Below are positions 5,522 to 30,951 of a stretch of 64,000 bases of DNA, piece by piece (position 1 is the first letter of the stretch; each line of letters starts with the position of its first letter). The notes beneath the pieces are model-generated. The model saw nothing but the letters and a program-made list of their open reading frames with translations. It was not told where the DNA came from and did not search any database. This DNA comes from Candidatus Aegiribacteria sp. (GTDB lineage Bacteria; Fermentibacterota; Fermentibacteria; Fermentibacterales; JCC-6). The stretch covers positions 1-64,000 of the forward strand of contig JAGLOY010000046.1 of NCBI GenBank assembly GCA_023138735.1. The letters are read 5' to 3'. The position numbers were made by a program, and so were the translations under genes.

Positions 5522-6324
5522 CAGAATATTTCGGCTCTTATGCGGCTTTCAATGATCCCGCGGTCCAGATCCGTAAGAGCGTCAAGAAAACAGGGGACAA
5601 AAGTACCGGGACCGGCGCAAACGTCTGCGGCATTCTCCCCCGCTATGCCGAGGGCGGCAAGACCGCCAAGCGCTGCATGGAATGGATCTTCCATGGATGC
5701 TGCGAAACATGCCACAGAAGTTGAGGCGGAACAGCCCGTTCCGGTAACCCTTCCCATTATAGGATGACCATTTTCTATCCTTGCTGTCCGATTTCCATCG
5801 GTAACGATATCCACAGACCCTGTAACGGCGATCACACTGCCCGAATCCGCGGCAAACGAGGATAGAAGATCGATCCGCCCCTCAACCGAATCCATCGAAT
5901 CTACACCCCGCACTTTACCGTCCGCGCCGGAAAGAGCAAGAACCTCTCCGGCGTTTCCCCGGATGATGGTGATCTCAAGTTCCCGTGTGATCATCTTAGC
6001 CGAATCCGTCCGGAGTTCTGTAGCTCCTGCTCCAACAGGATCGAAAACTATGGGTATCCCCAATTCATTCGCAACTCTTCCCGCTGCCAGCATGCTCCTG
6101 ACAAGGCCGAGGTCCAGTGTTCCTATGTTAAGAAGCAGAGCCCCGGCGAACCGCACCATCTCCGGGGATTCCTTGATACAGGGCGCCATGACGGGAGCTG
6201 CTCCGAGGCACAGCGTCACGTTTGCGGTGAAATTCATAACGACGGTATTCGTTAAATGATGGATCATCGGTTTGCTGCTCCTGATGGCAGCAAGGCCGCG
6301 GCAGGTTATCTCTGCGGGTTTCAT
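5521..6324 (-). CDS. thiM: Hydroxyethylthiazole kinase
   Basis: PMIHHLTNTVVMNFTAN, DPVGAGAT, VTGTGCSAS motifs. Confidence 0.93.
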   Translation of the reverse strand: MKPAEITCRGLAAIRSSKPMIHHLTNTVVMNFTANVTLCLGAAPVMAPCIKESPEMVRFAGALLLNIGTLDLGLVRSMLAAGRVANELGIPIVFDPVGAGATELRTDSAKMITRELEITIIRGNAGEVLALSGADGKVRGVDSMDSVEGRIDLLSSFAADSGSVIAVTGSVDIVTDGNRTARIENGHPIMGRVTGTGCSASTSVACFAASMEDPFHAALGGLAALGIAGENAADVCAGPGTFVPCFLDALTDLDRGIIESRIRAEIF

Positions 6325-6334
6325 GAAAACCTCC

Positions 6335-6417
6335 GGATTTTCTTACGCCGGCATTACCCGGGTCAAGTTCAAGGGGTGTAATTCTCAGGTCCGGAATCTC
6401 CGGGCCGCCCCCAATCC
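6335..6417 (-). promoter_or_regulatory. TPP (THI-box) riboswitch upstream of thiM
   Basis: Minus strand contains CTGAGAATTACACCCCTTGAACTTGACCCGGGTAATGCCGGCGTAAG, the canonical THI box; P1 GGATT/AATCC closes the element. Confidence 0.93.
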
Positions 6418-6498
6418 TGCGTCAAAGCTATGAATGATATATTTGATAGTCAAACCTGAAGACTTGTTGAGATCTCCCCGTAATGTTATTTCAGGCAG

Positions 6499-28114: not shown

Positions 28115-28900
28115 TTGAAGAAACCCCGGGTTCTTCTAACCGGAGCCACGGGCAGACTGGGCTCCGTTATTCTGGAAGATCTCTCGAATATCTGGGACAT
28201 CATTCCTCTATCCCGAAGGGGAGGAGGAAAAACCCAAAAATGTGATATTCTTTTACCCGGGGACAGAAAAGCCCTTCTGGAACAAGAGTTCGACATAGTG
28301 TTGAACACGGCAGCAGCGTCCTCTCCTTCCCTCTGCGCGGACAGACCTGCGGAAAGCTGGATTCTGAACACCCTGTGGCCGCGCGAAGTGGCTGCATACT
28401 GCCGCGAAAGAGCTATACGGCTGATTAACTTCTCAACAGATCTTGTATACAGCGGCGGAGCCCCTCCATACACTGCAGCTTCTCCTGCGGTTCCTTTGTC
28501 ATTTTACGGATGGACTAAACTTGTTGCGGACATATTTGTACTGAAAGCTGACCCCGATGCTCTGATTGTCAGAACATCGGTTCTCTGCGGAGAGACCGGT
28601 TCGAACAGAACCACATTCTCAGAGGACCTCCTTTCGGGAAGAGTAAGCACTGTGTACGTTGACAGCTGGAGGAACCATACCCCCATTCACTGGCTTGCGG
28701 GGATCCTGCCCGAGCTTGCCGCAAAGGAGCAAACCGGTCTTGTAATCGCTTCAGGTAAATACTCAATGTCCCGCTCCGCGTACGCGGAAGCTCTGCTTAA
28801 ACGCCTCGGGAAAAGTACGGATCATCTTATTATGGAGTATACGCCTCCGGGTGTACCCTCCAGGCTCCATCTGAGGGGAGATTACAGCTGTGAACAATAA
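28115..28900 (+). CDS. RmlD-like sugar-nucleotide reductase / SDR epimerase
   Basis: LLTGATGRLGSVI; INFSTDLVYSGGAPPYTAASPAVPLSFYGWTK; TTG start. Confidence 0.8.
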   Translation: MKKPRVLLTGATGRLGSVILEDLSNIWDIIPLSRRGGGKTQKCDILLPGDRKALLEQEFDIVLNTAAASSPSLCADRPAESWILNTLWPREVAAYCRERAIRLINFSTDLVYSGGAPPYTAASPAVPLSFYGWTKLVADIFVLKADPDALIVRTSVLCGETGSNRTTFSEDLLSGRVSTVYVDSWRNHTPIHWLAGILPELAAKEQTGLVIASGKYSMSRSAYAEALLKRLGKSTDHLIMEYTPPGVPSRLHLRGDYSCEQ

Positions 28901-29774
28901 GTCCGCAAAGAACAGTCTGATAGAAAAAGGTATCCGCGCCGGGGAAATCGACATGTACGAGGAAGACAACACCTGGTCGCAGAACAGCAGTGACAAGGTG
29001 GATATAGCGGAAGAGCTGATGTGCGTGATCAGAAATTTCTGCAGGACAATTCCAGTTGATCGTCTTCTTAATGCTCTTTCAATCGGCTCGGGCTCTGAGC
29101 CGCAGTTTCAAATCCTCGAGGCGGCGTTCAGGGGAGGATTGAACCTTCTTGATATAGACAGTATCCCTCTTTCAGTAATCGATAAACGTATACAGAACCA
29201 CTGGATAGACCATGTAAAGACTATTCAGGCGGACTACAATAAAGTTCTTGTTCACGATGCAGATGCGCGGCTGTTTCTCAGCAGGGAACTGGGAGGAACC
29301 AGGCAGGACCTCATCACTCTGCATCACTCTCTTTACTATTCCAGCGAGTCCGACTGGGCCGAGCTGTTCGGGAGTCTATACGGAACCGTCCTGGCAGAAC
29401 AGGGGGCTATCCATGCCGTTATGATGTCTTCAGACTGCAGGGAGCCGGATTCCACGACATGGCTTTACAACCACTATGCCGGAAAATTCTTCGGCTGCCG
29501 CAACGACCAGAATCTTGCCTCATTCGGTAAAACACTGCACAGCACTACCGGTTTTGAGCAGGCTGAGATTCGTATTGAAACTCACAGAGTCAGATTCTTT
29601 ACCGATGATTTTGAAAAATTTATGGAAGTGATATGGATGATACTTCTGTATCCGAACGTGCATGATTACACCCATGATCAGAGAGAAGAGATTACCGAAC
29701 ACGTCTACAGCAGCTTCTATGAGCCCGGAAAACCGCTTATTCAGATGCAGGATCACCTCATCATAACCAGATAA
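28890..29774 (+). CDS. Putative SAM-dependent methyltransferase
   Basis: LSIGSGSEPQFQILEAAFRG, LLDIDSIPLSVID, DLITLHHSLYYSSESDWAELFGSLYGTVLAEQG. Confidence 0.6.
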   Translation: MNNKSAKNSLIEKGIRAGEIDMYEEDNTWSQNSSDKVDIAEELMCVIRNFCRTIPVDRLLNALSIGSGSEPQFQILEAAFRGGLNLLDIDSIPLSVIDKRIQNHWIDHVKTIQADYNKVLVHDADARLFLSRELGGTRQDLITLHHSLYYSSESDWAELFGSLYGTVLAEQGAIHAVMMSSDCREPDSTTWLYNHYAGKFFGCRNDQNLASFGKTLHSTTGFEQAEIRIETHRVRFFTDDFEKFMEVIWMILLYPNVHDYTHDQREEITEHVYSSFYEPGKPLIQMQDHLIITR

Positions 29775-29837
29775 CGTTTGAATAAGCCGTTTGCGGGTGC
29801 CGTTGCCCGCAAGTCGGTCTTGATTCGTTTGTTAGGT
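29769..29837 (-). repeat. attC-like imperfect palindrome (integron cassette recombination site candidate)
   Basis: Minus strand ACCTAAC..GAATcAAGaCCG..TTGCGGG..CCCGCAA..CGGCTTATTC..GTTATCT: R boxes, unpaired spacer, L boxes with two extrahelical bases, GC-rich apical stem. Confidence 0.5.
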
Positions 29838-29849
29838 ATTCATATTTAC

Positions 29850-30167
29850 TTACGATCGAATCATTGTTAACAACATTTTGAAATTTTCTGTAGCCTTCAC
29901 TGCGTGAGGCTTATTTGCCAGCATAACAATCATCTGGCCTGATTCTAAAGTGTTTGGATTGCCTGAAATTGTGATTTCCGCTTTTCCATCAAGAACGTAG
30001 ATCATAGCATCAAATGGAGCTGTATGTTCACTTAACGACTGTCCCTTACTAAACGCGAACAATGTTATAGTTCCGGTTTCTTTCTCTACTAAAGTTCTAC
30101 TAACAACAGATTCGGCTTGGTAATCCACTAAGCTGTTTACAATCTCTGGTTTCGATTCCTGATTCAT
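29850..30167 (-). CDS. Cupin-domain protein
   Basis: FSKGQSLSEHTAPFDAMIYVLDGKAEITISGN...MIVMLANKPHAVKA; SD GGAGG before ATG 30167. Confidence 0.85.
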   Translation of the reverse strand: MNQESKPEIVNSLVDYQAESVVSRTLVEKETGTITLFAFSKGQSLSEHTAPFDAMIYVLDGKAEITISGNPNTLESGQMIVMLANKPHAVKATENFKMLLTMIRS

Positions 30168-30480
30168 ATTTTCCTCCGATTTGTTATACCTACAGTGATT
30201 ATGCTGAGTCTTCATTTCTTTTCAAATATTCTCACACGTTACACTATTAATGTAGGTTATATCCTGTCAATGGTCATCACAATTAAGGGATTTGAGAGAA
30301 GAGACAAGCAAATGTCTGCAAAGGCAGATAAATACTATGATATGAAGAGTCTACATATCAGGGCGGCTCAATACATCTCCCTGGAGGGTTGAATCGAAAC
30401 AAGGTTCGTATTATTGTAACTGCGAGATTGCAGGGTCGTCCAGGGGGCGGTATCGATCACACACCCACAAGGGGGATTAA

Positions 30481-30951
30481 ATGAAACTTGTTACTGTACT
30501 TTCACTGACGGTGATGCTCGTATTGATGGCATGCGGAGGGGGCGCGTTACCCGAGGATTCCATGACGGCCTTCGTCGAGGCAATTAAGGCCGGAGACGGC
30601 GAAACGGCCGCCAGTTACATATCAAGCCATGCGCTGAGTGAGATGGACGTACAGCTTGTTGCGATCAAGGAAAATCCTGAGATGTCAGTCACCTACTTCG
30701 CGACCATGGGAGTTGAAGCGACTGCAGATGAAATAGCGGATTGGACATCTCAAGATCTCCTTGCAGCTTTCTTCGGAAGCCCGGGAATGGTGGAGGAACT
30801 GGGTGACAAGCTCGATATGGAGGTCACCGGTTCGGAGATAGAAGGCTCCGAGGCAGTAGTCTTCATAACTACCGCCGATGGTGACGAAAAAGAGATCGAT
30901 ATGGTACTCGAGGATGGAGTGTGGAAACTCTACGAGATGCCATCAGACTGA
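30481..30951 (+). CDS. Small lipoprotein, DUF4878-like
   Basis: Lipobox VMLVLMAC; AFVEAIKAGDGETAASYIS...EDGVWKLYEMP. Confidence 0.65.
   Translation: MKLVTVLSLTVMLVLMACGGGALPEDSMTAFVEAIKAGDGETAASYISSHALSEMDVQLVAIKENPEMSVTYFATMGVEATADEIADWTSQDLLAAFFGSPGMVEELGDKLDMEVTGSEIEGSEAVVFITTADGDEKEIDMVLEDGVWKLYEMPSD

Follow-up and report, generated by a model that had tools for sequence, protein, structure and literature searches.

The 64,000-nucleotide stretch of DNA analysed here (the window, from contig C134) carries a lone cupin gene that ends in an inverted repeat resembling an integron attC site. This raises the question of how a gene cassette could come to lie, and to be expressed, at a place with no integrase. 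Recombination of attC with attI by the integrase IntI, followed by expression from the promoter Pc, is established integron biology, and the usual description of an integron pairs an integrase with its own attI in cis. The lack of an integrase in the window had already been remarked on in an earlier reading of the sequence alone (the sequence-only reading), and was borne out by a TIGR02249 search, which found no intI beside the site or elsewhere on the contig.

The inverted repeat lies immediately after the cupin gene, and is made up as follows.

29769-29837, minus strand: attC site, from sequence, folds and a covariance model trained without this site
29837-29831, minus strand: R'' box ACCTAAC, an exact match to RYYYAAC
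29826-29815, minus strand: L'' box GAATcAAGaCCG, with extrahelical C at 29822 and A at 29818, from sequence
29812-29806 and 29797-29791, minus strand: stem TTGCGGG/CCCGCAA, from sequence
29789-29780, minus strand: L' box CGGCTTATTC, from sequence
29775-29769, minus strand: R' box GTTATCT, outside the strict GTTRRRY consensus

All of these elements had been described in the sequence-only reading, and all are present, including the two extra bases of L''. Read on the minus strand, AAAC occurs both between R'' and L'' and between L' and R'. The claim that the box layout is that of an attC stands for R'', while R' departs from the strict consensus; yet both GTTATCT and GTTATCC serve as R' in attC sites of the integron array that the genome itself carries (C169 has GTTATCT). 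The extra C and A are on the L'' arm, and in the genome's arrays the arm that is 5' in the gene direction mostly has one to three unpaired bases.

A covariance model was made from 13 other attC sites from arrays of the same genome, leaving out the window site, and was preferred to pattern scans, which at loose settings gave many chance matches. Across the 64 kb with filters off, it matched 29769-29837(-) at a significant 31.9 bits (E 1.9e-5), the only strong match there; the second-best place scored 12.9 bits. In nine unrelated loci (54 kb) it gave no match at E up to 0.5. The fold is also more stable than that of shuffled sequences (z -3.8 for the top strand with short flanks and -4.1 for the bottom strand), and none of 200 shuffles equalled it. 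A chance palindrome was considered as a reading of the hairpin and dropped. Rfam at gathering scores had a sole match in the window, a TPP riboswitch at 6323-6422(-) with 62.7 bits. Taken on its sequence features, namely the R boxes, the imperfect palindrome with extrahelical bases on one arm and the model score, the site is a genuine integron attC that closes a one-gene cassette. The arrays of the same layout and the intact integrases elsewhere in the genome give this further support.

The other side of the cassette was examined in the same way, and gives the following features.

28890-29774, plus strand: native flanking gene, conserved in the genus, with no Pfam family ("methyltransferase" is the label of the sequence-only reading), from its open reading frame and homology
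29769-29774, no strand assigned: attI right half TTATCT, which is also in the R' box of attC and the last codon and stop of the convergent gene, from comparison with the attI of C127
29775-30192, minus strand: integrated gene cassette of 418 bp, running from the attI left half (G^T at 30193/30192) to the attI right half (G^TT at 29775/29774)
29850-30167, minus strand: cassette gene, a single-domain cupin of 105 aa with its stop at 29850-29852 (Pfam Cupin_2, E 6e-10 for a longer ORF)
30177-30173, minus strand: ribosome-binding site GGAGG of the cupin gene, from sequence
30192-30273, minus strand: attI left half and Pc, 63.1 bits and E 8.6e-18 with a model trained without the window, and a promoter scan
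30203-30193, minus strand: attI core CATAATCACTG, from the attI/Pc model
30248-30243, minus strand: Pc -10 AATAGT, from the promoter scan
30270-30265, minus strand: Pc -35 TTGACA, from the promoter scan
30274-30373, no strand assigned: remnant of the intI leader and promoter, with leader TCTACATATCAGGGCGGCTCAATAC on the plus strand, 73% to C127 by blastn
30481-30951, plus strand: native flanking gene for a small lipoprotein, whose upstream region adjoins the intI leader

The region 30192-30373 is homologous by blastn to part of the same genome's intact integron on contig C127, where the corresponding stretch holds the intI leader, Pc and attI (73% over 183 nt, C127 16120-16302). Shared elements are the leader TCTACATATCAGGG.GG.TCAAT, TTGACA followed by TTAATAGTGT, and the attI core CATAATCAyTG^TT. 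In C127 the attI reads ATAATCATTG^TTATCT, and in the window its right half is found beyond the cassette, where it supplies the convergent gene with its last codon and stop (AGA TAA); the overlap with this stop codon, pointed out previously, is thus confirmed. Homology with the genomes G003, G002 and G015 ends at 29774. At the cassette's other edge, a single base marks both the end of the attI homology and the start of the complement of the R'' context that belongs to the cassette itself (TAGGTAT against ATACCTAAC). Both cassette edges, as read from the sequence, are where attC x attI recombination predicts. The junction reads TGTAGGTAT against an expected GTTAGGTAT, with one T missing, and the cassette may now be locked, given GTA instead of GTT at this point.

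The intI leader stops at about 30373, and the native flank, which is the conserved upstream region of the lipoprotein gene, starts about 10 bp beyond. The G+C content is 35-41% across the cassette and attI region against about 51% in the neighbourhood. Two further motifs were seen in the genus. One, AGACTCTAyATA, is present twice, once in the intI leader and once next to the attI core (L013 16135-16152 and 16276-16295). The near-palindrome GTGTACATATGTTTAC upstream of intI (for example at L013 16174-16190) is conserved in the genus's integrase types and weaker in integrase-less copies, and is a candidate SOS/LexA-type operator.

The order at the locus is therefore intI leader, Pc, attI, one cassette (cupin and attC) and the attI right half overlapping the native stop codon. 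An integrase would have joined the cassette's attC with attI at G^TT, and a cupin gene with no promoter would thereby have come to start about 76 nt past the downstream end of Pc. No promoter of its own was identified for the cupin inside the cassette, and Pc should transcribe it.

The closest relatives of the cupin are from outside the genus (Candidatus Anammoxibacter, 83% aa; Cloacimonadota, 77% aa), and only one of 18 congeners, G002, has one (68%). The nearest solved relatives, 3rns and 1yhf, are uncharacterised cupins. The DNA of the cassette body is 84% identical to the Ca. Anammoxibacter copy over 365 nt, ending at ATACCTAA, which is the R'' box; this similarity fits lateral transfer as a cassette-sized unit. 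In the nine unrelated loci the attC model found no attC beside cupin homologues of other phyla, including that of Ca. Anammoxibacter. The latter (L157 3001-3337) has the cassette body as far as the R'' box but not the attC, and is a possible source or a derailed copy.

The genome of the window, G000, has 3.22 Mb in 192 contigs. A search of it for intI and further attC sites, which the sequence-only reading had proposed, proved productive: there are two intact integron integrases above the TIGR02249 cut-off (on C169 and C127), a broken third (C101), and 46 places matched by the attC model with an E value of 1 or less (below 0.02 for about 44 of them). Arrays are found on C159, C169, C127, C139, C36 and others. 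Another attI/Pc without intI is at C139:27988-28170 (L084 12989-13171), directly after the gdhA terminator, and is followed by three attC cassettes, with one FRG-like and two GNAT-like ORFs by reading.

Comparison of synteny in relatives had also been proposed. The orthologous place was indeed found in G002, between the same two native genes, yet it carries attI/Pc (78 bits) and two other attC sites (52.4 and 31.1 bits); it has no intI, and its cassette genes are unrelated to that of the window. The lipoprotein flank is common to G002, G003 and G015. In G016, three attC sites lie beside the same neighbour gene (L042 599-3778) on a contig that ends before attI, with VapBC-like genes by reading. 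At the orthologous locus of G003 the leader is fused to the attI core, with other genes present, and Pc was apparently lost by deletion between repeats of the motif AGACTCTrCATA. The intI-side remnants at this locus differ between G000 and G002, and separate losses of intI in the two are possible.

A model of attI and Pc found 39 such units in 14 of the 19 genus genomes. Among the 30 units whose flanks were read, four adjoin a full or nearly full intI, and the other 26 retain no more than its first 84 codons, if any; the measured truncation points run from the leader to about nt 219 of intI, and none are deeper. The genomes look like incomplete drafts with many contigs, and misassembly at repeats may have occurred, but the pattern recurs in many species. 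In G003, tandem attI/Pc units lie 2-3 kb apart on C10 (2147, 4376, 6482) and C74 (22843, 25784), some of them sharing an upstream segment CCGGCCCCC...CACAGGGCGTTTCAC next to a piece of intI, perhaps an intron or IS end.

The platforms appear to be inherited for longer than their contents. Locus B (G003, G016, G013) has an intI truncation junction common to the species, with an internal deletion also found in two of them, and at locus E (G000, G010) the junction is common to both. The left flanks of orthologous platforms are 79-90% identical over about 1 kb. On the cassette side, blastn between orthologous platforms with long enough DNA on that side gave no match (window/G002, locus B, G017/G014, and G000-C139/G015-C31). 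Given the shared truncation junctions and dissimilar cassette sides, the integrase-less state therefore appears to be older than the cassettes at several loci, and the same order, with intI lost before the cassette came, is plausible at the window locus. Cassettes are also shared by platforms that are not orthologous: G004:C46 and G017:C215 (86% over 720 nt), G011:C102 and G016:C137 (91% over 82 nt from attI), and G002:C12 and G017:C62 (96% over 133 nt).

In 25 integrase-less copies compared with C127, the -35 matches at 97%, the -10 at 91% and the attI core at 94%, against 67-68% for spacers; the search model favours promoter and attI, and the one informative contrast is that with spacers lying within the region the model covers. 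This suggests that Pc and attI are still in use in these copies. A conserved box upstream of intI has a 77% match to C127 in the same copies.

These comparisons bear on the strongest of the rival explanations, that the locus is a dead relic in which the cassette came before or together with the loss of intI, no movement followed, and the differences between species come from losses out of a longer array. The window copy itself could be read in this way: it has GTA in place of GTT at the attI junction, a single remaining cassette, a decayed box upstream of intI, and an intI-side remnant unlike that of G002. The genus is harder to reconcile with it, in that the cassettes of locus B differ behind a common truncation junction, the same cassette sequences recur at non-orthologous platforms, and Pc and the attI core are better conserved than spacers. 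We therefore regard a dead relic as rather unlikely, although the species differences could partly be due to differential loss from longer ancestral arrays rather than new insertion.

The proposal of the sequence-only reading, a solitary cassette at a secondary, attG-like site that is not attI, could call on the single attC, the lack of an integrase on the contig and the known ability of integrases to recombine at attG sites (PMC12901181). It did not survive the discovery that a full attI borders the cassette on its 5' side, together with Pc and the leader of a deleted intI. This region is homologous to the intact C127 integron and to 38 other units; insertion at a secondary site is ruled out by this homology, and we consider it highly improbable. 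Least probable of all is a bidirectional terminator between convergent genes, as the position and stable fold of the hairpin might suggest, because it has no T-run and no terminator call, and the attC score, the two extrahelical bases in L'', the R boxes and the attI on the gene's other side speak against it.

We are therefore confident that this is an integron platform from which the integrase has been lost, and that its cassettes were most likely exchanged after this loss by an IntI encoded elsewhere, which in G000 would be the C127 or C169 enzyme. Exchange after the loss is proposed because orthologous integrase-less platforms in relatives hold other cassettes. Cassettes have thus probably kept moving, with the integrase acting in trans. 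In standard assays, with integrase and attI carried by different plasmids, IntI works on attI in trans. For CALIN cassettes, use in trans is considered possible in the literature (PMC9668308). A wider reading, in which one or two integrases per genome serve several fixed Pc/attI platforms with truncated intI starts, is one on which we are evenly divided. We would give the same even weight to its corollary, that many sites in the genome take up and express cassettes, on platforms inherited for longer than the cassettes.

Such an arrangement resembles several known systems. Like a sedentary chromosomal integron (for example the Vibrio superintegron), it has attI by Pc and promoterless, attC-ended cassettes pointing away from Pc, and intact integrons with IntI are found in the same genome (C127, C169); unlike one, the window locus lacks intI, and there are several attI/Pc platforms at different places per genome. 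It shares with a CALIN, or single attC without integrase (IntegronFinder, PMC9024848), an attC with no intI within a few kb, but it keeps attI, Pc and the intI leader; attI and Pc form no part of the CALIN definition. As in attG insertion, a single cassette lies outside an integrase-bearing integron, but the target is a true attI with promoter rather than a GWT site occurring by chance. Delta-attI-type cassettes of mobile integrons (PMC12901181) also have attI-type sites apart from intI, for which the tandem units of G003 may be compared, whereas in the genus units Pc is retained along with a truncated 5' end of intI, and several occupy chromosomal loci conserved between species.

Among the papers listed by word searches of the open-licence literature, none reported integrase-less attI/Pc platforms. 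IntegronFinder does not detect attI outside class 1 (PMC9024848), and because of this such platforms would be filed only as CALIN, as orphan attC clusters, or be missed, which may explain why they are undescribed.

The genus-wide class of platforms is a more interesting result than the window attC itself. The genus has more promoter-attI platforms than integrases, several of them at conserved chromosomal loci with changing cassettes, and the cupin shared with an anammox planctomycete is a trace of cassette-scale transfer across phyla. The many natural copies of attI with and without intI make attI function and integrase specificity directly testable. If the reading in trans is true, the unit of cassette expression in these bacteria would be a scattered set of landing pads.
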